Below, one piece after another: positions 4,043 through 26,128 of a DNA stretch of 26,128 bases (position 1 is the stretch's first letter; the number at the start of each line of letters is the position of its first letter). The position numbers and the translations under genes were made by a program. The DNA is from a virus, in IMG/VR virus record IMGVR_UViG_3300022169_000027, positions 1 to 26,128 of that record, one strand, 5' to 3'. A model generated the notes under the pieces. It saw only the letters and a program-made list of their open reading frames with translations, searched no databases and was not told where the DNA came from.

Positions 4043-4684
4043 CTACAGTTTAAGCTCAGTTAATGCCTGATTGTCCCCTAAGATTCCGATTGGAAAAGTA
4101 TTAAAGGACAAGCTATACCTTGTTTTTCCTTTGACGGGATTTACCCAATGCACTAAATCTGACGGAAATAAAATTAAAGTACCTTGTCTAGCGGACAACC
4201 ACCAAGATTCAGAGTTAAAAGGCGTATGATCTTCTGATGGAATTGTTATTTTATATGAACCACCCCGTTCAAAAAAAATCTTATCATCCTCATTACCTTG
4301 AAAATAATAAACCCCCGAAACCAAACTGTTAGGGTGCGAGTGTTTATGGTGAAATCCTTCTGCGGTCGTTTTGTTTACCCATGATTGAGTAATCTTTAAA
4401 CTTACCTCATTCTTTGGTCTGTATGTATCTGCAAAATAATTTCCCACTGCTTTTTCAATCCAATGCCTTAGACCACTTACCTCGGCATTATTTAAAACAT
4501 AGGTATCCTCAGATGTTTGATTACCAGTGTTGGCTCTATACTTCCCGCCAGTTAAAAATGCCAACTCCTTTTTAGTTTCTTTATTATTATTTTTAATTAC
4601 AGAAACATGAGTGGGGAACAATGGAAATGTTTCAATTGCGTTGGGTGCGTCTTCTTTTTTAATTGGGTGAACAACGCCTGACAT
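4043..4684 (-). CDS. 2-oxoglutarate/Fe(II)-dependent oxygenase (2OG-FeII_Oxy_5-like)
   Basis: A 213-residue enzyme of the phage 2OG-Fe(II) oxygenase type (TIGR02466/PF13759-like). The start is the ATG at 4684, which overlaps the preceding stop by one base (TAATG). An in-frame start 5 codons upstream would lie inside that gene. Family motifs seen are QSWVNKTTAEGFHHKHSHP followed by SGVYYF (first metal-binding half of the double-stranded beta helix), GTLILFPSDLVHWVNP (distal His) and RYSLSFNTFP (Arg that binds 2-oxoglutarate). The reaction would be hydroxylation of an unknown substrate with O2 and 2-oxoglutarate. It lies among fibre genes, so modification of a fibre or of host surface/DNA is possible. 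The gene is much more AT-rich than its neighbours (220 G/C of 600 bases, about 37%, counted over 4081-4680), which points to separate acquisition. Confidence 0.85.
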   Translation of the reverse strand: MSGVVHPIKKEDAPNAIETFPLFPTHVSVIKNNNKETKKELAFLTGGKYRANTGNQTSEDTYVLNNAEVSGLRHWIEKAVGNYFADTYRPKNEVSLKITQSWVNKTTAEGFHHKHSHPNSLVSGVYYFQGNEDDKIFFERGGSYKITIPSEDHTPFNSESWWLSARQGTLILFPSDLVHWVNPVKGKTRYSLSFNTFPIGILGDNQALTELKL

Positions 4685-5094
4685 TATACTTCTACCCAAG
4701 ACGTTGTGTCTTCGTCCCAGATGTAAATCTCACCGTCATCTGGGTAGGCTGTTGGAGCCTCCCAAATACAACTATCATTGTTCAGTGTCCAGCTTGCGTA
4801 TGGCTGTGGCGCGTAGAAGGCATCACGTTCTGCGTCATATGTGTCGCCTATACCAGCAAAGTTCTTGCGTAACGCAACACCGCCGTCTGCAACAGGTTGT
4901 AGGATAGTTTCGGTAGTTTGGTTCAGGTCTTTATCTACTCTTACAGTAGACACTTCTTCGTAACCGTAATGAAGGCCTCCCCATGTGTTAAAAGAAGTCT
5001 GCACCCATGTGCCATCAAGACCATCAACAAAATCTTGTTCGGCAGTGATTACTTGCTCCACTGTACCATCTACTACTTTTGCAAAATGACTCAT
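4684..5094 (-). CDS. Tail-fibre-associated protein, cyanophage-like (hypothetical)
   Basis: A 136-residue protein beginning MSHFAKVVDGTVEQVI, then QDFVDGLDGTWVQTSFNTWGG, GGVALRKNFAGIGDTYDAE and PYASWTLNNDSCIWEAPTAY. These Trp- and Gly-rich motifs are familiar from small proteins in the fibre regions of marine cyanophages and other marine phages; their role is not established. Its ATG overlaps the stop of the Gly-rich adhesin by four bases (ATGA). Compared with the versions I recall, there is an extra stretch around residues 45-66 (EEVSTVRVDKDLNQTTETIL). The location between an adhesin and an oxygenase suggests a fibre tip or assembly accessory. Function unknown. Confidence 0.75.
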   Translation of the reverse strand: MSHFAKVVDGTVEQVITAEQDFVDGLDGTWVQTSFNTWGGLHYGYEEVSTVRVDKDLNQTTETILQPVADGGVALRKNFAGIGDTYDAERDAFYAPQPYASWTLNNDSCIWEAPTAYPDDGEIYIWDEDTTSWVEV

Positions 5095-10807: not shown

Positions 10808-11488
10808 TTATTCTCCGTCATTATCTGAATATAAATTATCAAAAACAATAGACGGATCAGTGTAGCTTTCATGCCCTTCCGCAGAGTGAACTCGCTGGTT
10901 AGGGCAAAAATCTGGGGCACCCTGACCTGTTTTCCACAAAGCGGGGCTTGTTGCTCTAACCCTGTTATTTGGTAATGCTACTATATTACCATACCAAGGC
11001 CCCGGTTCTGTAATATACATCACGTGACTCTGTTTATGCTGGGCTGGATCATCCGCTATGTGATGATCGGTATAATCAACCGTAAACATGTAGCGAGCAG
11101 AGTAGAACTCGTGGTTTATCTTAGCCATCCAAGGACTGCTACTAACACGGTCCATAGTAATCACAGAATGATCCCGGGACTCGCAATCCCACGGTTGCGC
11201 TAAATGGTCGGCCATTTCTTCCGGCCATTCAGGCATTACAATGTCTGCAACAAGTGCCTGTATGGGCATTCTAGCCCACATTGCACCACCATGAACGTCA
11301 TCTATGTCCTCATCATCGTTTTCACACCCTGTAAAAACAACTTGAAAACTTAGCGACCGATCCGGAATAGTATTTACAGCAATAGCTAATGCATGTAAGT
11401 ACTCTCCGTGATAGCGTAAATGGTTACAAGTGTATTCTCGCCTAACCCAGCACTTAAAATGCGGGATATTGCTAATTAGGTAAGACAT
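10808..11488 (-). CDS. Hypothetical phage protein
   Basis: A 226-residue protein rich in Trp, His, Tyr and acidic residues. It begins MSYLISNIPHFKCWVRREYT and continues HLRYHGEYLHALAIAVNTIP, GGAMWARMPIQALVADI, WDCESRDHSVIT, EFYSARYMFTVDYTDHHI, VMYITEPGPWYGNIVALPNN and VRATSPALWKTGQGAPDFCP. The composition is that of a compact globular protein, unlike the Ser/Thr-rich virion proteins around it. Conserved-looking His, Cys and Asp residues could bind metal, but I see no known signature. The ATG overlaps the stop of the preceding Lys-rich gene by one base. I have seen similar sequences described only as hypothetical in marine phages; the function is unknown. Confidence 0.75.
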   Translation of the reverse strand: MSYLISNIPHFKCWVRREYTCNHLRYHGEYLHALAIAVNTIPDRSLSFQVVFTGCENDDEDIDDVHGGAMWARMPIQALVADIVMPEWPEEMADHLAQPWDCESRDHSVITMDRVSSSPWMAKINHEFYSARYMFTVDYTDHHIADDPAQHKQSHVMYITEPGPWYGNIVALPNNRVRATSPALWKTGQGAPDFCPNQRVHSAEGHESYTDPSIVFDNLYSDNDGE

Positions 11489-16435: not shown

Positions 16436-16933
16436 TTAAAAATGCAAAACGTCTTCGGGGCTGAGAATTTTAGCTAAAACTTCGTCATCGTTAAGAATCC
16501 GAACTTCGCCCCCATCAATCGAAAAACGTGATCCGGCATAACGTGCAAACATTACCCAATCTTTTTCTTCACACCACGGACCTGTAGGGAATTTCTCGGG
16601 GTCTTTGTAGGCGAGAGGACCAACCTTTAGAACGTAGCCGACTTGCGTCGAAACGTGCTGTTGCTCCATCATTTGATCAGGTAGATAGATTCCACCTTCA
16701 GTTTGACCTTTGCCACGGTATGGAAGAATTAATATTCTCCAGCCAGTAGGTGAAGGCAATCTTTCTAAAAGGCTTTCGCCAATGTTTTCTGGTCGCAAAA
16801 AAGGTTTTTCTGCGTAAGCATCTTGAAGGGTTTCTGCATCTTTCGGGGGTGCCTCGGGCGCTGGTTCTTTTTCTGCTTCTAGCTGAAAAGATGCACTCGG
16901 GGCGGCTGAAAGATCAATCTTTGATTCAGTCAT
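16436..16933 (-). CDS. GroES-like co-chaperonin (viral Cpn10)
   Basis: A 165-residue protein. The first ~55 residues are a disordered acidic/Pro/Ala leader not found in bacterial GroES. The remainder is a GroES fold: PTGWRILILPYRGKGQTEGG, IYLPDQMMEQQHVSTQVGYV, LKVGPLAYKDPEKF, DWVMFARYAGSRF, and GGEVRILNDDEVLAKI. EGGIYLPD takes the place of the mobile loop that binds GroEL, and VGYVLKVGP, DWVMFARYAG and VRILNDDEVLA are barrel strands. Viral co-chaperonins (T4 gp31 is the classic case) cap host GroEL to fold the major capsid protein. Placement just before scaffold and capsid genes fits. AGGAG precedes the ATG by 7 bases. Strong call. Confidence 0.87.
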   Translation of the reverse strand: MTESKIDLSAAPSASFQLEAEKEPAPEAPPKDAETLQDAYAEKPFLRPENIGESLLERLPSPTGWRILILPYRGKGQTEGGIYLPDQMMEQQHVSTQVGYVLKVGPLAYKDPEKFPTGPWCEEKDWVMFARYAGSRFSIDGGEVRILNDDEVLAKILSPEDVLHF

Positions 16934-17200: not shown

Positions 17201-17644
17201 TTAAATATGTGACCACTCTTTTCCTAACCACAGCAGGGATTCCGCTTCTCTCCGACGAATTAAACCGTCTAAGACATTCCCTCCCGCTCTATTCCACCTT
17301 TTTATCTGATGAGGGACATCCTCAAAATCACCAGAATTAATCCTAGTGAGCAAAGTGCTTTCCCGTAAGTTGTTTGGACCGAGATTGAATGTCCAAGCCA
17401 CAAGCGCATCGAACTGGTTTTGATCCAAATCCGGGTCGATATAATCAAGTACATATCTTTCAAACTCATTTAAGTCCTCCTTTAATAAAGAGTCCGCTTC
17501 TTCCTGTGTTATTACATCATCAGAAACAACGCCTGCGGTGTGTCCGTACCCTATTGTCCAGACCCCCGCACTGCACTGATACGCCTCTAGCTTGCACCCT
17601 TCAAACTTCTTTATTAGAGCAATTCCCTCACCACTAGTTTCCAT
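17201..17644 (-). CDS. Endolysin, GH24 lysozyme (muramidase)
   Basis: A 147-residue GH24 lysozyme that cleaves the N-acetylmuramic acid to N-acetylglucosamine bond of peptidoglycan. The ATG at 17644 gives the canonical N-terminus METSGEGIALIKKFEG. Longer in-frame starts would overlap the previous gene extensively. The motif KLEAYQCSAGVWTIGYGHT supplies the family triad with spacing Glu-8-Cys-5-Thr: Glu15, Cys24 and Thr30. Cys in place of the usual Asp is an accepted variant. The C-terminal lobe has NQFDALVAWTFNLGPNNLRE and LIRRREAESLLW, conserved in phage lysozymes. No signal peptide or SAR segment is seen, so release depends on the holin coded two genes earlier. It overlaps the preceding gene by 11 bases. 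Confidence 0.92.
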   Translation of the reverse strand: METSGEGIALIKKFEGCKLEAYQCSAGVWTIGYGHTAGVVSDDVITQEEADSLLKEDLNEFERYVLDYIDPDLDQNQFDALVAWTFNLGPNNLRESTLLTRINSGDFEDVPHQIKRWNRAGGNVLDGLIRRREAESLLWLGKEWSHI

Positions 17645-17813
17645 TAACCCAAGCCTCGTTGGTTTTTGTGGTGGGGTCGTCGGGTAAGTACCTTCCTTTG
17701 GTATCACGCGCTCTTTTTCTTTTGCCCGTTGGTTTTTGCTCAGATGTTCCACGTGGAACATCGGCAGACGTTTCTTTTTTAAAAAAAGAAGAAAACCAGC
17801 TAAAAACGCTCAT
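17634..17813 (-). CDS. Small basic protein carrying a parS-like site
   Basis: A 59-residue protein. The ATG at 17813 has GGGAG 8 bases upstream and sits just past the holin stop. The N-terminus is aromatic/hydrophobic and amphipathic (MSVFSWFSSFFKKE), followed by VPRGTSE (residues 19-25), which is encoded by the perfect palindrome at 17745-17760. A Lys/Arg linker (KPTGKRKRARDTKGRY) and the tail LPDDPTTKTNEAWVNG follow. The (T)KGRY..DDP.T...NEAW tail is common in marine phages without known function. It lies between holin and endolysin genes. Confidence 0.7.
   Translation of the reverse strand: MSVFSWFSSFFKKETSADVPRGTSEQKPTGKRKRARDTKGRYLPDDPTTKTNEAWVNGN
17745..17760. other. parS: parS-like ParB-binding site (perfect palindrome), copy A
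   Basis: TGTTCCACGTGGAACA is a perfect 16-base palindrome, and symmetry extends to 20 bases (17743-17762). It matches the bacterial centromere consensus TGTTNCACGTGNAACA recognised by chromosomal ParB proteins. It lies inside the small basic protein gene between holin and endolysin. A 23-base block (17739-17761) is identical to 23401-23423. Its position in coding DNA and the absence of parA/parB here imply use of a ParB supplied from elsewhere. Binding has not been shown. Confidence 0.8.
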
Positions 17814-17814
17814 T

Positions 17815-18213
17815 TTATTTCTCCCGTGATACTTTCTGAATTTTCTCAACGGTACGCATACCGCCAAGACCCAGCATACCTAAAAGCACAGGCATCATCT
17901 CAGACATCTGTAGTAAAGGTATGGCTATCTCGCTCCCTGCAACCGCCAAGGCAAAGTTGCCCATTGGGATTAAGATATAATTTGAGGCCATGCCGATTAC
18001 AGTCACCCAGCCCACAGCAGGTCTCCAGCCAGCAACAAACATTGATTTTGATGCCGCCTCGACCTTATTGACCTCCAACTGCCCCTTAGCGAGTTCTTGA
18101 GCGTGGCGCTCGGACATGGTGGCAATCTCATGTGCCAAGGCGTTTTTGGTGTCTTTATCTTCGATAAACTTGTCAAGAAGACCCGAAACTGGGCCGATTA
18201 GTGCTTGTAACAT
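17815..18213 (-). CDS. Holin, 3-TM type (Holin_3TMs-like)
   Basis: A 132-residue membrane protein. An amphipathic N-terminal region (LIGPVSGLLDKFIEDKDTKN) and a helical linker (AHEIATMSERHAQELAKGQL) precede KSMFVAGWRPAVGWVTVIGM, the hallmark FVAGWRP..GW motif of the Holin_3TMs family (PF11351), known from gene-transfer-agent and phage lysis modules. Hydrophobic segments at about residues 68-92 and 94-120 follow, then a Lys-rich tail (KIQKVSREK). It would form the inner-membrane holes that let the endolysin out. It is coded two genes upstream of the endolysin. Strong family call. Confidence 0.88.
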   Translation of the reverse strand: MLQALIGPVSGLLDKFIEDKDTKNALAHEIATMSERHAQELAKGQLEVNKVEAASKSMFVAGWRPAVGWVTVIGMASNYILIPMGNFALAVAGSEIAIPLLQMSEMMPVLLGMLGLGGMRTVEKIQKVSREK

Positions 18214-18647
18214 TAGATAACTCCAAATATCTTAAAGCCTATGTAAAGAGCAAGAGGCAGAATAACTAATATGCCTGTACCCCACAGTAACGCAGAAATT
18301 AACAATGCCCACATCTCTGCTTTCTTTCTTTTTCTTATTCTCTCTGCGTTTTCTCTATTACGCTTGCAGTCTGACTGATACTGTAGCCAGTCTTTATGCA
18401 TGTCGGCTCTGCCAGCATAGATCATAAAGTCTTTGAGCCACTCTTCCTGCTCTCTTAATTTTTCTAACTGCATGAAACATTCAAGTTCTGACTTTCCGCC
18501 TGCCTTGTTGGCTTTCTTGGCTATCGCAGACTTGCTATCGAAGTACTTGGTCGCCTGATCTGCCACATCGTAAAGCTCGCGCCCGTTTGACAGAGCGCCT
18601 TTAATGACTTGAAACGCGGCGTTGGCGGCGGCTATTTCCGCTAACAT
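18213..18647 (-). CDS. Membrane-anchored helical protein, paralogue 2
   Basis: A 144-residue protein. MLAEIAAANAAFQVIKGALS at the N-terminus is followed by LYDVADQATKYFDSKSAIAK, then FMQLEKLREQEEWLKDFMIY and a basic helix (KRNRENAERIRKRKKAEMW). A long hydrophobic C-terminal segment (about residues 112-141) would span the membrane once or as a hairpin. This layout is frequent in marine phages and has no proven role. It mirrors the gene at 18967-19434 in order of motifs, so the two look like diverged duplicates. Start and stop overlap its neighbours by one base on both sides. Confidence 0.75.
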   Translation of the reverse strand: MLAEIAAANAAFQVIKGALSNGRELYDVADQATKYFDSKSAIAKKANKAGGKSELECFMQLEKLREQEEWLKDFMIYAGRADMHKDWLQYQSDCKRNRENAERIRKRKKAEMWALLISALLWGTGILVILPLALYIGFKIFGVI

Positions 18648-18967
18648 TATTTCCTCGTCATGTAGGCTGTTGCGCCAAAAAACATGCCTATCACGCTTGC
18701 TTGACTTAGAAAAAGCATGTCACTTAATGAAGCTATAGTGTCTAATCTGGATTCTGGTATAAATGGCATAATAGGAAGAAGCGCGTAGACGCACATGCTA
18801 ACCATAGCCACCCATGCCATCTTTCTCTGAGAGTCGGCTTTTTCTTCTCGGATAGTTTGATCGACCATTTCTGTGTGACGGGATATCTCTTCATCAGTAA
18901 CAATGCCATCGTGATCTAAATCAAACTCTGAGTATTTGCTTTCTTTCTCTAATTTTTTTGGAGCCAT
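18647..18967 (-). CDS. EF-hand protein with two transmembrane segments
   Basis: A 106-residue protein. Residues ~17-28 form a canonical EF-hand calcium loop, DLDHDGIVTDEE, with acidic/oxygen ligands at positions 1, 3, 5, 9 and 12 and Gly at position 6. After a charged linker come two hydrophobic segments (about residues 49-70, MAWVAMVSMCVYALLPIMPF, and 81-103, LFLSQASVIGMFFGATAYM) joined by a short loop. A single EF-hand fused to a membrane hairpin would place a calcium-sensing domain at the cytoplasmic face if the N-terminus is inside. It is coupled by TAATG overlaps to both membrane-protein neighbours and lies two genes before the holin. A role in timing or regulation of lysis is a guess. 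Confidence 0.8.
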   Translation of the reverse strand: MAPKKLEKESKYSEFDLDHDGIVTDEEISRHTEMVDQTIREEKADSQRKMAWVAMVSMCVYALLPIMPFIPESRLDTIASLSDMLFLSQASVIGMFFGATAYMTRK

Positions 18968-19434
18968 TACTCACCCAGCACCTTCATAACCTCAATAGCG
19001 TACCAAGACGCTCCGCCAAGGACGGCAATAAACAAAACCCCCACGACATTCTTAACCATCTCGTCTCGCTTGGTAATAGCTCTGTTTTTAGCTAAACGAG
19101 CCTTCTCTCTGCGTTGTTTGTCTTCCATAAGGGATTTGTGCTGGATAGCCAGCATGTCTCGCCATACTTGCCGTGGAGTGATTTTCTTGAGTTCTTTTTC
19201 TTTCTCTCGGATATCGTTTTTAGCCCAAGCAAGCTGAAGAGCCTCCTCCTGAGTGATGAGGTGGTTCCCTTCATTTACTTCGGACTCTATCTGCTCCACA
19301 GCCGCCTTGCTTTTCGTCAGGCCGTCAAAAACACCAGTCAAACCTGTAAGGTGACTGCCGCTCTCTTTTACTGTAGATATTCCCTCATTAAGCGCCTTGA
19401 GTATCCCAACTACGGCGGAAATTTCTGCGATCAT
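18967..19434 (-). CDS. Membrane-anchored helical protein, paralogue 1
   Basis: A 155-residue protein with AGGAG 5-6 bases before the ATG. MIAEISAVVGILKALNEGIS at the N-terminus is followed by LTGLTGVFDGLTKSKAAVEQ, LAWAKNDIREKEKELKKITP, RQVWRDMLAIQHKSLMEDKQ, a Lys/Arg stretch (REKARLAKNRAITKRDEM) and one C-terminal hydrophobic segment (about residues 128-149, NVVGVLFIAVLGGASWYAIE). The segment order and several positions match the gene at 18213-18647. The cytoplasmic part is coiled and charged. Function is not known; membrane anchoring near the holin suggests a lysis or envelope role. Confidence 0.75.
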   Translation of the reverse strand: MIAEISAVVGILKALNEGISTVKESGSHLTGLTGVFDGLTKSKAAVEQIESEVNEGNHLITQEEALQLAWAKNDIREKEKELKKITPRQVWRDMLAIQHKSLMEDKQRREKARLAKNRAITKRDEMVKNVVGVLFIAVLGGASWYAIEVMKVLGE

Positions 19435-19442
19435 TTAAGCTC

Positions 19443-19631
19443 CTACGCAGGCATCCACTTAAACAAAGCTATCGCGCTTATAATAAACGGATACATGCTG
19501 AACATTATCATTTCAAGTCGATCAAACCTTTTGGCTCCAGACTCTAAGCGCCTCTCTATATTCTCATACCTTAGACTGCATTCTTTTTCGTGCGCCTCAA
19601 GCTTCGCAATGGTGTTTTTTACTGTAGGCAA
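19443..19631 (-). CDS. Small coiled-coil protein with C-terminal TM segment (XhlA-like layout)
   Basis: A 62-residue protein: VKNTIAKLEAHEKECSLRYE, NIERRLESGAKRFDRLEMIM form a charged coiled coil, then a hydrophobic C-terminal span (about residues 39-59, MIMFSMYPFIISAIALFKW). The start codon is TTG, chosen because a strong GGTGGAGG ribosome-binding site lies 6 bases upstream and no ATG or GTG fits. The architecture is like that of XhlA/haemolysin-type phage membrane proteins that assist holins. Sequence evidence for that family is weak, so this is a layout-based suggestion. It opens the membrane-protein run. Confidence 0.75.
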   Translation of the reverse strand: MPTVKNTIAKLEAHEKECSLRYENIERRLESGAKRFDRLEMIMFSMYPFIISAIALFKWMPA

Positions 19632-19633
19632 AA

Positions 19634-20560
19634 CTATCCTCCACCAAACAGGTCACTAGAAACAGGTTGCACTACCTCGGGTTGAACAAAAGACCCTATT
19701 CCCGATTGAAAAGGACTGGCCTGTTGTGCCACTGGCGCTACCGGATTAGCAAAAGGACTTACCGGCGGCGGAGCTATTGCGTTAACAGGCTGAACAGTTG
19801 CTTTTGGCGCATCATACGAAAACTGCGTACCATCGTCTTGCATTTGACCCGACAGGTCTACTTCCCACCCCTCCGGCATGTCATAGTTGCCACCATTCGT
19901 AGCCGTCCACCTGTCACCTGTTTTCGGGTTGATGTAGCTGACCATACCCATTGTGACGGGGCCCGTTGACGTAGATTTAAACCCGGGAGGCATGTTGTCC
20001 TCACCCGTCCCGTAATCAATAGAAGTAGGCTGTGTCAGGAAAGGGTTTGGCTGTGGTGCAACCGGAGAAATAGGTGTTCCACCCGGCTTAGTAGCGTACT
20101 CGGGGAAAACGGGGTCATAAACCGGGGGAACGTAAGGCTCGGGCTCCTCGACCGGCTTAACAGGTTCGGCGGGTAACGGAGTAATATAACCGTCAAAAAG
20201 TCCGTCCTCATTACTGTCTAAGTCAAACAGAGGACCTCGGGCTCCTTGGGTACCGACGAGTACCATGTTTCCACGCTCATCGGCACGGTAGACATCTTTC
20301 CCGTTTTGACCTGTAAATAAAGAACCTAATCCCGAATCTACCTGTGAAGTAGGGTCGTCAGTTCCTGTAGGGTCGTCAGTTCCTGTACGACCATCATCTA
20401 CGTTACCGACTGCGGGGGGAATAGCGTCCGGGTTATTGCTACCCGCCGTACGAGCCCTTTCTGTAAACCACGCCGTTTTCTCGGCATCGGTCATTTCGCC
20501 CCAGTTATCTGGGAATCCGAAATCAAAGTTAGCGAAATTAAAACCCGTTATAACAGACAC
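19634..20560 (-). CDS. Proline-rich protein (hypothetical)
   Basis: A 308-residue protein. I choose the GTG at 20560, one base beyond the previous stop; a GTG at 20602 would overlap that gene by 41 bases. The N-terminus contains FNFANFDFGFPDNWGEMTDA and EKTAWFTERARTAG. Most of the rest is disordered Pro/Gly/Asp-rich sequence, with a direct repeat of (G)TDDPTGTDDPT near residues 60-72, an NGKDVYRADERGNMVLVGTQ segment, and GMVSYINPKTGDRWTATNGG. No catalytic motif is present. Similar low-complexity proteins after portal genes are common in marine phages. It may be a virion or tail-linker protein. Function unknown. Confidence 0.7.
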   Translation of the reverse strand: MSVITGFNFANFDFGFPDNWGEMTDAEKTAWFTERARTAGSNNPDAIPPAVGNVDDGRTGTDDPTGTDDPTSQVDSGLGSLFTGQNGKDVYRADERGNMVLVGTQGARGPLFDLDSNEDGLFDGYITPLPAEPVKPVEEPEPYVPPVYDPVFPEYATKPGGTPISPVAPQPNPFLTQPTSIDYGTGEDNMPPGFKSTSTGPVTMGMVSYINPKTGDRWTATNGGNYDMPEGWEVDLSGQMQDDGTQFSYDAPKATVQPVNAIAPPPVSPFANPVAPVAQQASPFQSGIGSFVQPEVVQPVSSDLFGGG

Positions 20561-20561
20561 C

Positions 20562-20759
20562 TTACTTACAACCCATGTAACCGCCGCCCTTAACAGCGGC
20601 ACCCATGCCGCGAGCAGTCATGCGAGTCATGGTAGTAGGTATCTTTACGTCCGCAGTCTTGCCATACGGAATACGGCCCTGACCTTTGATGTCAGCGTAA
20701 GTAGTGGCCTTTGGAGCCGCCTTCGGAGTGTTAGTTACAATGCTTACTTTAGATTTCAT
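20562..20759 (-). CDS. Small basic Gly-rich protein after the portal
   Basis: A 65-residue protein starting at the ATG at 20759, one base past the portal stop, with a GGGGC ribosome-binding site inside the end of the portal gene. It contains VTNTPKAAPKATTYADIKGQ, YGKTADVKIPTTMTRMTARG and a Gly-rich C-terminus MGAAVKGGGYMGCK. The ARGMGAAVKGG tail is a recurrent motif in small marine phage proteins, echoed here by ARGCGAV in 11677-11994. Role unknown; position suggests a head or packaging accessory. A longer frame to 20918 lies within the portal gene and is not used. Confidence 0.7.
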   Translation of the reverse strand: MKSKVSIVTNTPKAAPKATTYADIKGQGRIPYGKTADVKIPTTMTRMTARGMGAAVKGGGYMGCK

Positions 20760-20760
20760 G

Positions 20761-23208
20761 TTATTGCCCCTGCTGTTTAATAAATTCGCGCTCTCTTGCG
20801 GCATCAATACGAGCCGCAGTCTGCCGCTCTTGTGCCTCAATCCTTTCGCCAAACTGGCGGTTACGCATCTCAAGCGCCTGCGCGTCGAGTTGCACCTTGG
20901 TCTGATCAAGCTGTGCATCCGCCTGCTCAGACTGAGCTTTAAGTTCTAGCTCCTGTTGCTTGAGTGCAATCAGTGGATCAGGCCCTTGCTCTTGTCCGCC
21001 TGTTGCTATCTGCTCAGACAGTTGCTTGAGTTGTTGCATACCTTCCGCAACGTATTGTGCCGTCATCGCCTCCATCTCCAGCATCTCTTCCGGAGTAGCT
21101 GGCGCGCCTTGATTGCCCATAACTTTCTGCATGTAAGCTACCGAAGCCTGCTCTTTAGCCGCAATCTGAATATGCTCCATCACATGTTTCTGCAATGTTA
21201 TCGCAACTGGCGGCAATTGACCAACCATAGGTGTGTTACCAAATACCAAGTGAGCCATAATGTGAGCCTGATGGTCCTGACCTTCAAAAGCCTGTAACTC
21301 CAACATATCAAGAGCGTTGATGTTCTCTTGTGCAGGGTCCACGGGCCGTGGGTCGGGAGTAGCCTTCATAATCCGATCTAAGTCAGTCACGCCCATCGCT
21401 TCATACATGTCACGGTAAACTTCGTGCAAGTTATGTAGCTCTGGTGCCGCAGTAGCAAGCTGTAGCTTACTCTGAGCAAGAGCAATGCGTTGCGCCTGAC
21501 TAAAGATGTTCGGGTTACTTACAGGTATAACATCGACCCGCGAATCAAAGTCCGTAGCCATAACGGTGCCGTCAGCACCTGCAACCTCAAACGGATACTC
21601 CGCTGGGAGACTCTCACCCATAACTCGGGCCAAAATCTTAAACTCAACACGCATGGCATAATGCAGACGCTTATGCACCGCACTCATTACACGCGAGCCC
21701 TGCTCAAGCATCGCTATTGTAGTTCCAACTGCCGCCTGCTGATTACCGTCGCCCACCTTCATATCGGTGATAGTGGCGAACCGCTGACCGGCCTGAACAA
21801 CAAAACCTAACAATTGATACAGCGTCTGATCCGGTCCCTTAAACGGTAACGGCATCAAGCTGTCTCGGATCGCACCACCGGGTGCATCAACATCCCTAAA
21901 CTCACCGGGCTGTAGAGGCTCATCGTCGTCCCTGATCCGTAGGCCGCGGGCCTTGAATCCTGCTGGGAGGTTAGACAGAGTACCGGCATCTATAAGCTGA
22001 CGTAGTGCAGAAGTAGCTGTGCGAGACAAACCACCGATAGTGTGAATCAAACCAAGGCCGTAGAAACCAAAACCGGGCAAAAACTTGTAGTGAACAAAAT
22101 ATTGTATTTTCTTCTTTAACTCGTCATCTTCGCGGTAGTTTCTGCGTATAGATAGTATCTGTCCGTTATCTTGGGAAATAGTAACCAGATAAGGAACCTT
22201 AATGCCGGTAGGATCACCGTCATCGTCTAATTCTTCGTACCCCTCAATCTCTAAGTCAGCATGTACCTCTAAAAGAGTGCAGTCGTAATCAATGGTAGAA
22301 GGCTCTACACCATCAACATAGTTGATCTCTTTTCGTACAGAATCCAACTCACCCTGTGAAGGCAAGACATCCATATCCAAATACTGGCCTGAAAACTGTT
22401 TTTTACGCAAATCATTCAATGACATGCGTACAACTTGAGTAATGTTAGGGCAGGTATCTAAATCAGATGTCTCGTAAGGAACCACAAGATTCTCAGCGGG
22501 GATAAACTTACTTACCGCACGGCCCATAGTCTCGTCGTAATAAACCTTCTTAAAGGTACTTCCGGCCAAAGGCAGATAAAACAACATCTGATCCATATCC
22601 GGCGTGTAATCTTCCATTACATTTGTAATGTAGTAATTCATAAAGGTCTGAACACGCTCGGCCTGATCTTTCTTAGCACGTGTGTCCTTACCCAAGGAAA
22701 CTGTTTTGACGGGACCCGTGGGAGGTAAAAGCTCGTTAAACGCTTGAGCTTGGAATTGTGTAGCGGCCTCGGCCAATAGGGGGTGAGTCACGCCTGACGA
22801 ACCACGGAAGGGTTGCTCACGCTCCTCGTAGTTGAATCCAAGCAACTCTAAGCCATTGGCGTATGTCTCTTCCCAGTCCTGACGGCTGGCTTTGTTAGAG
22901 TCAAACTGATCTAGAAGATCGCTGGCAATAGCGGCAAGCTCGCGGTCCGGCATCTCTTCCGCTAAGTTAGCGTAGAAGTCATCACTTGCGCCGCGCTCGT
23001 CCTGCGGATCAAAATCTATTGTGACACCGCCGTCGTCTTCCTGAATGATCTCTATCTCGGGGGACCCTTCAATGTCGGAGTTTCGGACTAGGGGCTCACC
23101 CAAATCCATAATCTCTAATTGAACTTCCGCATCTAGGTCATCTGGATCAATCTGAGATGGAACATTGTTGTCCATCAAAGAGCCTACACCTTTTATCTCA
23201 TTAGCCAT
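20761..23208 (-). CDS. Portal protein (P22-like)
   Basis: An 815-residue portal protein, within the size of large P22-type portals. GAGGA lies 7 bases before the ATG. After an acidic leader of ~85 residues come DLLDQFDSNKASRQDWEETY, ANGLELLGFNYEEREQPFRG, SSGVTHPLLAEAATQFQAQA and FNELLPPTGPVKT, the core of the family. FYLPLAGSTFKKVYYD-type strands, LPGFGFYGLGLIHTIGGLSR and DMKVGDGNQQAAVGTTIAML follow. The C-terminal ~150 residues form a Gln/Glu/Ala-rich helix (LIALKQQELELKAQSEQADA) that matches the barrel or coiled coil of P22 portals. It forms the dodecameric channel for DNA entry and exit and docks terminase. Neighbours (terminase, scaffold, gp4-like adaptor) agree. Confidence 0.9.
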   Translation of the reverse strand: MANEIKGVGSLMDNNVPSQIDPDDLDAEVQLEIMDLGEPLVRNSDIEGSPEIEIIQEDDGGVTIDFDPQDERGASDDFYANLAEEMPDRELAAIASDLLDQFDSNKASRQDWEETYANGLELLGFNYEEREQPFRGSSGVTHPLLAEAATQFQAQAFNELLPPTGPVKTVSLGKDTRAKKDQAERVQTFMNYYITNVMEDYTPDMDQMLFYLPLAGSTFKKVYYDETMGRAVSKFIPAENLVVPYETSDLDTCPNITQVVRMSLNDLRKKQFSGQYLDMDVLPSQGELDSVRKEINYVDGVEPSTIDYDCTLLEVHADLEIEGYEELDDDGDPTGIKVPYLVTISQDNGQILSIRRNYREDDELKKKIQYFVHYKFLPGFGFYGLGLIHTIGGLSRTATSALRQLIDAGTLSNLPAGFKARGLRIRDDDEPLQPGEFRDVDAPGGAIRDSLMPLPFKGPDQTLYQLLGFVVQAGQRFATITDMKVGDGNQQAAVGTTIAMLEQGSRVMSAVHKRLHYAMRVEFKILARVMGESLPAEYPFEVAGADGTVMATDFDSRVDVIPVSNPNIFSQAQRIALAQSKLQLATAAPELHNLHEVYRDMYEAMGVTDLDRIMKATPDPRPVDPAQENINALDMLELQAFEGQDHQAHIMAHLVFGNTPMVGQLPPVAITLQKHVMEHIQIAAKEQASVAYMQKVMGNQGAPATPEEMLEMEAMTAQYVAEGMQQLKQLSEQIATGGQEQGPDPLIALKQQELELKAQSEQADAQLDQTKVQLDAQALEMRNRQFGERIEAQERQTAARIDAAREREFIKQQGQ

Positions 23209-23211
23209 CTA

Positions 23212-24834
23212 TTATTCCTCCGAAGAACGGCCCATTATAGCGTCTAATTGCTCTAATATCTCCGGCTCAATGTCGGAGGCATCTGTCTCTGATTTTACAG
23301 GAAGTCCCGCCTGACGCATAATTTTAGCGGTAGCCGCGTTTTTTCTGCTGTTTTCAGGGGCCGTGGGCCGTGATTTGTTCATAATTGTGCCTATCCCATC
23401 CTCAGATGTTCCACGTGGAACATTCTTTTGTTCTATGTTTAAGCTCTTTAGACCTTGATCCATAAGTCTTTGTCGTCGATCTCCCGTATAACCCGGCTTT
23501 TCCGAGGCTTTAAGGTCAAGGTATCGCTCCATTATCTCTTCTTCAGTGATTTGTGGAACACCGCGCTGGTCTTCCACAAGTTCCGGGTTAGCCTCTGCAT
23601 AATCCCTGTTAATCAATGTCATCGGCTCGGCGGTACGAATACGCTCATACTTTGAAATCTCGTCCGGGTTAGCCGTGGAATCCATAAAGTAACCGGTGTC
23701 GTAGCCATAATCAGGCTCTTCAACAAGTTTACCCAATCCCAAAAAATTTTTAAGAGAAGGCTCTGTGAGTAGCTCCTCTCGACGCTTACCAAAAATGCTG
23801 TTGGTAACACGCATTTCATAAAGGTCGTCTAAAAGCTCTTGCTTAGTAGGAGTGTCTTCTAAACCGAAAAAGTCTGCTATACCACCCATAATGGTATCTT
23901 GCGTATCTTCTATGCGAGGTCCGCGCTTGCCTTGAGCAAACTCTTCAAAAACCATTTGAGAAGGGACCGACTTGTTAGCGGGCAGACCCCCACGTTTGTA
24001 GGGACGCTCGGTGATATCCAGTAATATGTTTTTTTCTAATCCGGAAGGTAGCTCGGTGTCTTCGCCCCTTTGCAATTTTGCATACGTCGCAAGGTTGGGC
24101 AAAGTAAAACGGTCTGTCTCAGGGTCCTTTAACAAGTCCATACGATATTTTGAAGCATAGTCCATCACCGCTTGTTTATACTCTAAAGGCGTTTGAGCGT
24201 TTATAACGGACATTGTGTAGATGGGTTTTTCTTGGTTAATCCCAGAGCGGTGATAAAACTCGTGAGCCAGTGTTTGAGCGTCCATCCCGCCGGGACCTAC
24301 CGTAAATATTTGATCCCCCTCCGTAAACATCTTCGGATCGGTGTAAATATCTGGCGTAGGGCTATTACCAAAAGCGTCCTCGTATTCTGACATACGGTTG
24401 TAGATAGAATTCATCTGATACTCGGCAGGGAAAAAGTCAGAACGACGGTGGCCGCCGCCCCTTACTTCGCTAAACACTCTGTCTCCAACTACTTCAGGAA
24501 AATACATCCCATGGATAGTGGACATTTTGTCGCCAGTACCCAGACTATTCACCCTCTGCATATCGACCGGAAGGGCATAACCCGACCTCTTCGCTACCTC
24601 AACCGCGGCCTCCGAATCCCCCAAAGACATGGCCTGATAAACATCAAGCGGGTTCATGCCACTTACAGAAGCCGTCTCTAATGCATCAAAATAATTACTG
24701 CCCTCAATCTGGTCCGGGTAGTTTTCAGACATGTACGCGTCAAAAGCCATACGTTCAGGGTTATCTGAATTATATAAGGGACTCGCAAAAACCGTCACAG
24801 TATCTACGTTCTGGGAATAGGAGGGTTCAGCCAT
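23212..24834 (-). CDS. HExxH metallopeptidase-like protein between terminase and portal
   Basis: A 540-residue protein. I use the ATG at 24834 (MAEPSYSQNVDTV); an upstream TTG at 24849 is possible. The motif TLAHEFYHRSGIN at residues ~188-200 has the zinc-peptidase signature HExxH (HEFYH) preceded by a hydrophobic strand (IFTVGPGG), as in zincin metallopeptidases. A third ligand cannot be assigned. The first ~180 residues and the last ~300 match no family I know; the C-terminal region is acidic and probably disordered. VPRGTSE (V472) is encoded by the second parS-like palindrome. The place usually holds only terminase and portal. It could be a virion-borne peptidase, a maturation factor or an ejected enzyme acting on the host. 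Fold and activity are inference from one motif. Confidence 0.75.
   Translation of the reverse strand: MAEPSYSQNVDTVTVFASPLYNSDNPERMAFDAYMSENYPDQIEGSNYFDALETASVSGMNPLDVYQAMSLGDSEAAVEVAKRSGYALPVDMQRVNSLGTGDKMSTIHGMYFPEVVGDRVFSEVRGGGHRRSDFFPAEYQMNSIYNRMSEYEDAFGNSPTPDIYTDPKMFTEGDQIFTVGPGGMDAQTLAHEFYHRSGINQEKPIYTMSVINAQTPLEYKQAVMDYASKYRMDLLKDPETDRFTLPNLATYAKLQRGEDTELPSGLEKNILLDITERPYKRGGLPANKSVPSQMVFEEFAQGKRGPRIEDTQDTIMGGIADFFGLEDTPTKQELLDDLYEMRVTNSIFGKRREELLTEPSLKNFLGLGKLVEEPDYGYDTGYFMDSTANPDEISKYERIRTAEPMTLINRDYAEANPELVEDQRGVPQITEEEIMERYLDLKASEKPGYTGDRRQRLMDQGLKSLNIEQKNVPRGTSEDGIGTIMNKSRPTAPENSRKNAATAKIMRQAGLPVKSETDASDIEPEILEQLDAIMGRSSEE
23407..23422. other. parS: parS-like ParB-binding site (perfect palindrome), copy B
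   Basis: TGTTCCACGTGGAACA again, with perfect symmetry over 18 bases (23406-23423), inside the C-terminal coding region of the HExxH gene. It is 5,662 bases from copy A. The same peptide VPRGTSE is encoded in the same frame at both sites. That peptide could be written with 18,432 codon combinations, yet the two DNA copies are identical through the whole block, which favours selection on DNA or a shared origin. Confidence 0.8.
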
Positions 24835-24855
24835 TAGCTCGACTCGCAATTATTG

Positions 24856-26128
24856 TCAATAATATACCTGCATCCTACCAGAGTTCTCGCTATCTTCCCA
24901 ATCATCTGATGGCAACTGAACAAAATTGCCCTGACGATAACGCATTAAAGCCTGTGTCATGCTATCAACCAAATCGTCATGCTCACCATTTGGAAATGCC
25001 GCAACCTCCTCAACTAACTCATCCGCCCAAGTAGTGTCGGGGACCCAAACCATCCCAGCTTCAAATAATGGCGATACCGAGTGAACCCTCGTCACCTTAT
25101 CATTACCCCTAGATGGCGTGAAGTTAACAACCGGAATCCCCATATTTCTCATCTCCTGAGTCAGAGGGGTCCCGCTCGCTTTTGCCTCCACTATGACGGT
25201 GTCGGGGTCCCAAAACTTATACTCGTCAAACGCAACCTGCTTTAACTCCGGAAAATCCCACCGACCCTTCTTACTATCCAACAAAATTAAATTAGGACCA
25301 GAACCCCCCTCATTCGGATAAAACACACCCCACGTAGTAATCGCACTGTAATCCGCCGTCTGCTTCTTACTAAACGCCGTATCGTAACTCTGGATCACAT
25401 ACTCCAAATTAGGGACAGCCTTCTTCTCCCACGTGCGCCACCACTCGCGCTTGATAATCGCGTTCTCTTCACCCGTAGGATTCTGCTGATACTGCGCGTT
25501 CCATTTGCTCGGGGGAATAGATGCGCGGACCGCGGTCAAATCCTCAATGCTCCAAAACTCCGGCCAACACGCCGTGCCATCATCAAAAATAGCAGGCAAC
25601 TCCACAACTTCCCACTGATCCGCCAACGGGTCCTTCGCCATCGCACGTAACAACTGACCCGTCATGTCCTTCTCAGACCACCGAGTCTGTACCAATACAA
25701 TAGCACCGCCCGGCTGTAGTCGCTGTCGAGGACCACCCGTATACCAATCCCACGCATCATCAAAACCAGCATTTGACATCGCCGTCTGCTCCGAGTGCGG
25801 ATCATCAATAATAATTAAATCACCACCACGACCCGCGAGATTCGACCCAACGCCCACGGCATAATACATACCACCCACAGAGGTGTCCCAACGGCCCGAG
25901 GCCTTACTGTCAGATGCCAAATGAACCTTGTCAAAAACCTCCTTGTACTCGTCCGAATCCAAAAGGTTCTTTGTCTTACGACCAAAGTTAACCGCTAACT
26001 CAGTCGTGTGTGTCGCTTGAATGATCTTCATCCGCGGATTACGGCCCATCATCCACGCAGGAAATAAGAACGACGCAAACTCACTCTTCGTGTGCCGCGG
26101 TGCCATATTGATAATCAAACGCTTTAGT
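24856..26128 (-). CDS. terL: Terminase large subunit, TerL (5' end cut by window)
   Basis: The frame is open to the right edge (the residues before the apparent start, LKR, are coded), so the N-terminus is missing; a TTG at 26118 is not the true start. The ATPase domain shows the phage Walker A-like motif MAPRHTKSEF, Walker B DLIIIDDPHSE, and the coupling motif VQTRWSEKDMTG. The C-terminal RNase H-like nuclease shows its acidic residues in VIQSYDTAFSKKQTADYSAI, DTVIVEAKASGTPL and GEHDDLVDSMTQAL. TerL pumps DNA into the procapsid through the portal and cuts the concatemer at start and end of packaging. Its stop precedes the HExxH gene closely. The APRHTKSE form is typical of terminases of many marine and lambdoid-like phages. 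Confidence 0.93.
   Translation of the reverse strand, partial: LKRLIINMAPRHTKSEFASFLFPAWMMGRNPRMKIIQATHTTELAVNFGRKTKNLLDSDEYKEVFDKVHLASDSKASGRWDTSVGGMYYAVGVGSNLAGRGGDLIIIDDPHSEQTAMSNAGFDDAWDWYTGGPRQRLQPGGAIVLVQTRWSEKDMTGQLLRAMAKDPLADQWEVVELPAIFDDGTACWPEFWSIEDLTAVRASIPPSKWNAQYQQNPTGEENAIIKREWWRTWEKKAVPNLEYVIQSYDTAFSKKQTADYSAITTWGVFYPNEGGSGPNLILLDSKKGRWDFPELKQVAFDEYKFWDPDTVIVEAKASGTPLTQEMRNMGIPVVNFTPSRGNDKVTRVHSVSPLFEAGMVWVPDTTWADELVEEVAAFPNGEHDDLVDSMTQALMRYRQGNFVQLPSDDWEDSENSGRMQVYY

Follow-up and report, generated by a model that had tools for sequence, protein, structure and literature searches.

Late genes and two parS sites in the window

The DNA analysed here (the window) corresponds to an entire IMG/VR record, a linear fragment of 26,128 bp that carries podovirus-like late genes, namely those for the terminase large subunit (TerL), a 545-aa protein, portal, 3TM holin, endolysin, GroES, capsid and tail. 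The terL gene (24856-26118, minus strand, like all the genes given below) is truncated at the right end of the record, its 5' end being lost at the contig end. The 545-aa gene (23212-24849), whose product belongs to no known family, stands between terL and the portal gene (20761-23208); the genes for the holin (GTA_holin_3TM; 17815-18213), the endolysin (Phage_lysozyme; 17201-17761) and a GroES-like co-chaperonin that marks the family (16436-16933) complete the region of interest. Elsewhere in the window there are a 2OG-Fe(II) oxygenase gene (4043-4699), a kind of enzyme also annotated in the related pelagiphages, and a match to PHROG 3704, annotated as ferredoxin (10808-11488). A near-identity search of the window against the phage collection gave no match, nor did Rfam and tRNA scans of it.

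As the earlier note had it, the exact sequence TGTTCCACGTGGAACA occurs at 17745-17760 (site A) and 23407-23422 (site B). Both copies lie in a 23-bp identical block (17739-17761 and 23401-23423), and direct reading confirms palindromy of 20 bp at site A (GATGTTCCACGTGGAACATC, 17743-17762) and 18 bp at site B. The figure of about 6e-6 put forward for the chance occurrence of a given 16-mer in the window is correct (26128/4^16). Both sites fit the 16-bp parS palindrome TGTTNCACGTGNAACA, and no further match to it, with up to 2 mismatches allowed, was found across the window. Their membership in the chromosomal parS family, as originally proposed, is strongly supported by the comparisons with phage relatives and with chromosomal sites described below.

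The same note placed both sites in late genes, which holds for site B, inside the 545-aa gene where it is read as NVPRGTSED, and does not really hold for site A, which belongs to a 168-bp insertion between the holin and endolysin genes. The mechanical start of the endolysin frame falls within site A, while the lysozyme domain begins at about residue 40, and the mechanical start is probably wrong, the real one being near that residue. Within the insertion, a 59-codon frame (MSVFSWFSSFFKKETSADVPRGTSEQKP...; 17634-17813, bounds read from the sequence, inside the mechanical frame 17634-17867) reads site A as VPRGTSE, so that both sites are translated in one frame, as the same peptide. The insertion and its parS copy are shared with one relative (L133) and missing in three others (L124, L128, L132), and its flanks align closely between the window and L124.

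Site B is exact in 9 of the 9 relatives that span its position (L123-L128, L131-L133), and in a distant homologue, L143, it differs at one position (TGTTCTACGTGGAACA). By eye, the 545-aa protein contains the stretch AHEFYHRSG, an HExxH-like zinc metallopeptidase motif. It is 70-79% identical between relatives, against mostly 97% for the portal protein, and its gene appears frame-disrupted in L132.

Conservation of the site as DNA

An alternative explanation is that the palindromes arose by chance or that the peptide VPRGTSE is kept for protein reasons. The common reading frame of the two sites speaks for a peptide constraint, and the codons of the 545-aa gene do little against it: all 4 fourfold-degenerate positions in the site are invariant, but so are half of all fourfold positions in the gene (p ~0.05, a weak test, for which the relatives were fetched partly by the peptide pattern NIEQKNVP, which overlaps site B). 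The earlier note had proposed that relatives keeping the peptide with other codons would count against a parS; in this same weak test, the relatives keep both peptide and codons. Conservation through the peptide alone is nevertheless rejected, since in relatives this DNA sequence also stands where nothing is coded, and chance or peptide together are refuted by the counts in two sets of 80 loci, with an enrichment of several thousand-fold over permuted palindromes. We consider this explanation very improbable.

The first set was made of 80 viral loci (651 kb) picked solely by TerL similarity, without reference to parS. The parS core GTTNCACGTGNAAC is present in 48 of them, in 67 copies, whereas the 179 other half-site-permuted palindromes occur on average 0.017 times. 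Because several of these loci are near-identical, the 67 cores and 48 loci are not independent events; at least 16 changes between presence and absence are needed on the TerL tree. In a sister lineage, whose TerL is about 29% identical to that of the window, 34 of 80 loci hold 96 cores, the control palindromes having a mean of 0.034. The reverse test gave a concordant picture: among the 120 viral stretches listed as selected by TGTTNCACGTGNAACA, 33 resemble TerL, portal or capsid of the window's family, and 25 carry a TerL, portal or capsid gene of the family with at least 40% identity, while TGTTNACCGGTNAACA, a control palindrome matched in composition, selects only 57 stretches across the entire collection, none of them such a family member. 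The remark that sites of this kind are unusual in phages fails for this family, where they are common. In a quick TerL tree of 120 loci, 41 have no site, partly owing to short contigs; as the records are mostly fragments, a site missing from a record is not necessarily missing from the phage.

In a comparison of 37 distinct copies upstream of terL, in which the 14-bp core is invariant by selection, conservation falls off where the 16-mer ends; the outer T and A, to which that selection did not apply, are conserved in 95% and 97% of copies, respectively, and the degenerate parS position alternates between T and C. The site is conserved across relatives as DNA, above chance and above peptide constraint (the coding-only test being weak), and, on these comparisons, the sites in the phage family are probably kept by selection at the DNA level.

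Position and relocation of the site

Most commonly, the site lies about 50 nt upstream of the terL start codon, either single or as a pair about 24 bp apart, one with the TTT/AAA and one with the CC/GG spelling. It follows a promoter-like element, TTAACTGTCTTATA...TTAAAATCGCATA, which is strongly conserved some 40-130 nt upstream of the terL ATG (L146, L173, L189 and others). In the same loci, CCATGTTTCTCNCAAATATTTA is found further upstream of this element, and GGGNCCCC blocks occur directly before terL and at other upstream places. These three sequences are possibly late promoter or packaging signals.

The usual position is outside the window contig, since the 5' end of terL is cut by the contig end. 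In the window's lineage (L123, L126, L132), a similar element precedes terL and parS is missing there. The idea that parS belongs to the terL promoter was rejected, as this lineage retains the element without the site. In the TerL tree, the window lineage is nested among carriers of the terL-upstream site; as read from the tree and the alignments, its late-gene position is a derived relocation of a site usually found just upstream of terL. A 62-kb relative (G010) has an arrangement that resembles the window's, with a site 395 nt ahead of where the TerL alignment starts and another between portal and GroES.

This distribution bears on two explanations. One is a timing switch: host ParB would load at parS and spread over terL and the late operon, silencing them early, until replication multiplied the sites, diluted ParB and freed late transcription. 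The commonest site, between a promoter-like element and a start codon, is well placed for it, and Pseudomonas aeruginosa ParB does repress promoters adjoining parS3 and parS4 (PMC5521831), a precedent in its favour. The position is variable, though: in the 545-aa gene, before the endolysin, between portal and GroES, about 2.2 kb upstream of terL in phage QDWS535 and 2.5-5.3 kb upstream in pelagiphages; and the window lineage has the promoter-like element without parS. Both the early silencing and the later release are, in our estimate, unlikely. The other explanation, which we find clearly less likely again, is an aid to packaging or condensation, with ParB, or SMC recruited by it, organising DNA for terminase at the terS-terL end or marking DNA as that of the phage. 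Nearly all mapped sites are near the terL-portal-GroES module, but these genomes may just have their largest non-coding space there, and several relatives package without a site. The closeness to terL seen in all lineages does leave room for late-gene silencing or a packaging role.

Arrays and cultured relatives

In the sister lineage, arrays of typically 2-5 sites are found 0.3-2.5 kb upstream of terL, and all the cores among the matches listed are GTTTCACGTGAAAC. The most centromere-like arrangement met is that of L378-L396, L417 and L448, with 2-5 copies of GTTTCACGTGAAAC at varying spacing. Seven other, unassigned viral contigs (L017, L033, L049, L058, L065, L075, L081) carry 2-3 exact parS sites, and no ParB_N match was found in the whole of six of these (L017, L033, L049, L065, L075, L081).

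Arrays also fit the idea of a decoy, in which multiplied phage parS titrates host ParB and blocks segregation of the host chromosome or cell division. It would suffice for this to have the site and a high copy number, and the sites match the host consensus exactly. However, the 1-2 sites per genome of most members would make a weak sponge for a clamp-loading protein, and titration leaves the constant closeness to terL unexplained; we hold the decoy to be rather unlikely, a little more so than the timing switch.

The nearest cultured relatives are the pelagiphages HTVC027P and HTVC023P, together with 023Pt_psg01 and DSL-LC04 (TerL 57-63%, portal 48-51% identical). HTVC027P, a SAR11 phage described as strictly lytic (PMC11066056), resembles the window in TerL (63%), portal (49%) and the presence of a GroES gene, and has one site, CGTTTCACGTGAAACA. 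Of the 17 HTVC027P-type loci that extend to at least 4.4 kb upstream of terL, 5 have this exact sequence and 11 have a core with no more than one mismatch, mostly CATGTG. The HTVC027P type differs from the window in a site 2.5-5.3 kb upstream of terL and in the frequent CATGTG for CACGTG. Searched by term, the papers on these phages gave no mention of parS or ParB (PMC9599517) or of ParB (PMC12753301). Alcaligenes faecalis phage vB_Af_QDWS535 (OK172329), with portal and capsid 35% and 46% identical to those of the window, carries the window's exact TGTTCCACGTGGAACA at about 47935-47950; unlike the window, it is a cultured phage with a 50-kb circular record, and its single site is about 2.2 kb upstream of terL. 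No parS site was found in HTVC023P, 023Pt_psg01, DSL-LC04 or Roseobacter phage CRP-901, nor in most of CRP-902 and parts of Caulobacter phage RW and of ctpbd312, showing that the site is dispensable for some relatives. The window's family is large, mostly marine and podovirus-like, and many of its members are apparently lytic.

Search for phage-coded ParB and ParA

ParB_N (in whole records), HTH_ParB and ParA (AAA_31) domains were searched for, ParB in more than 90 records and ParA in 19, a set outside which QDWS535 falls. No HMM-recognisable match to any of them was found in parS-bearing members of these TerL lineages. All three are absent from the complete genome of HTVC027P, and ParB_N from that of QDWS535. 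The suggestion that a ParB might be coded elsewhere in the phage is not borne out by these two complete genomes or by long records of up to 62 kb. Among 48 parS-selected viral records of any kind, a ParB_N match was met in 3 (G032, G033, G188 below cut-off). The only one in the window's family is in a record without parS (G002), where the ParB_N stretch (L220; G002:C1:41950-42144) belongs to a 1056-aa open frame, possibly of a polyvalent protein. No complete ParABS system, with parA/parB adjoining the site, was found in the parS-bearing records of the family, nor were par genes such as phage-plasmids carry. Since the family carries an exact parS and not the protein that binds it, it probably borrows host ParB.

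The palindrome might, by mere resemblance, be the operator of a regulator coded by the phage itself, and it does adjoin the promoter-like element in most relatives. Against this, the base at N in the parS consensus varies and the spelling is the chromosomal one; sites are found in unrelated positions and in arrays; and no phage HTH_ParB domain was detected. Such an operator seems to us improbable, slightly more so than a packaging aid.

Host spelling

The window's spelling, TGTTCCACGTGGAACA, is that of all 39 exact sites found in Verrucomicrobiota chromosomes (26 of 59 genomes have sites). In alphaproteobacteria, almost every site reads TGTTTCACGTGAAACA, and no site among the matches listed is spelled as in the window; one alphaproteobacterial chromosome has CACGTG and CATGTG copies of parS beside rsmG-parA-parB (gene names given by eye from the translations). 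TerL relatives were found in genome collections in 3 Verrucomicrobiota MAGs, 1 Rhodobacteraceae MAG and 1 Maricaulis MAG, hosts being named here by co-binning only, with misbinning possible. A verrucomicrobial host is plausible for the window, in view of the shared spelling and of this binning, on which the assignment rests. The TTT/AAA spelling, unlike that of the window, is found in two phages from Verrucomicrobiota bins, which means that host matching is imperfect or that the bins are wrong.

Probable borrowing of a host centromere

ParB acts as a CTP-dependent clamp: once loaded at parS, it spreads from there and engages ParA and SMC. The phage sites share with chromosomal parS of ParABS systems (ParB/Spo0J family) the exact 16 bp and the same degenerate position; host copies, too, may be inside coding genes, as in two verrucomicrobial MAGs with sites within mnmG/gidA. 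They differ in being predicted ParB sites with no adjoining parA/parB. Phages are known to carry partition systems of their own. The extrachromosomal prophages or phage-plasmids P1 and N15 and the mycobacteriophages RedRock and Miko carry parABS (PMC7157519) and resemble the window's family in having centromere sites on phage DNA, sometimes in arrays; they have their own ParA and ParB and a plasmid prophage state, whereas the family has the site only.

We argue from these observations: the sites are identical to chromosomal parS and massively enriched, have been gained and relocated within phage genomes, and occur in arrays, and no phage ParB or ParA was recognisable. We favour, with a probability of roughly 0.65, the reading that these are true chromosomal-type parS sites, selected at the DNA level in a family that has no recognisable ParB or ParA, and at which host ParB is expected to load. 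Binding of host ParB to the phage sites is, judging from the biology of ParB, very probable. Bound ParB would load as a CTP-dependent clamp, and the clamps would slide across the neighbouring late and packaging region. The phage genomes could then be coupled to the host ParA/SMC machinery, a step proposed with less confidence than loading, which would tether them to the nucleoid, fix their position in the cell or let daughter cells share them in a slow or carrier-state infection.

That tethering, positioning or partition is the main use of the site is a tentative view, to which we give a little less than even odds. A site mobile within the genome and yet retained points to a genome-wide effect rather than to a single operator, and arrays would suit a partition complex. 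On the other side, HTVC027P is described as strictly lytic, so that partition to daughter cells is no obvious need, and simple tethering does not account for the steady closeness to terL.

Significance

Searches of the open-access literature, most subscription journals being outside it, brought up no earlier report of phages with an orphan parS of the chromosomal type. It is fairly likely, in our judgement, that a worldwide phage family, lytic members included, carries the host centromere but no segregation proteins and puts host ParB clamps to use when it infects. Centromere hijacking would then be a general strategy of phages, its sites following the host's spelling and moving about the genome. 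If orphan host-type parS is indeed under selection in phages that have no ParB, host chromosome segregation would be a target or a tool of phages. This raises questions about the location of phage DNA in the cell, the control of late genes by ParB and the relation between host ParB level and infection, for which the cultured phages QDWS535 and HTVC027P are available; and the site itself may hint at the hosts of uncultured phages.
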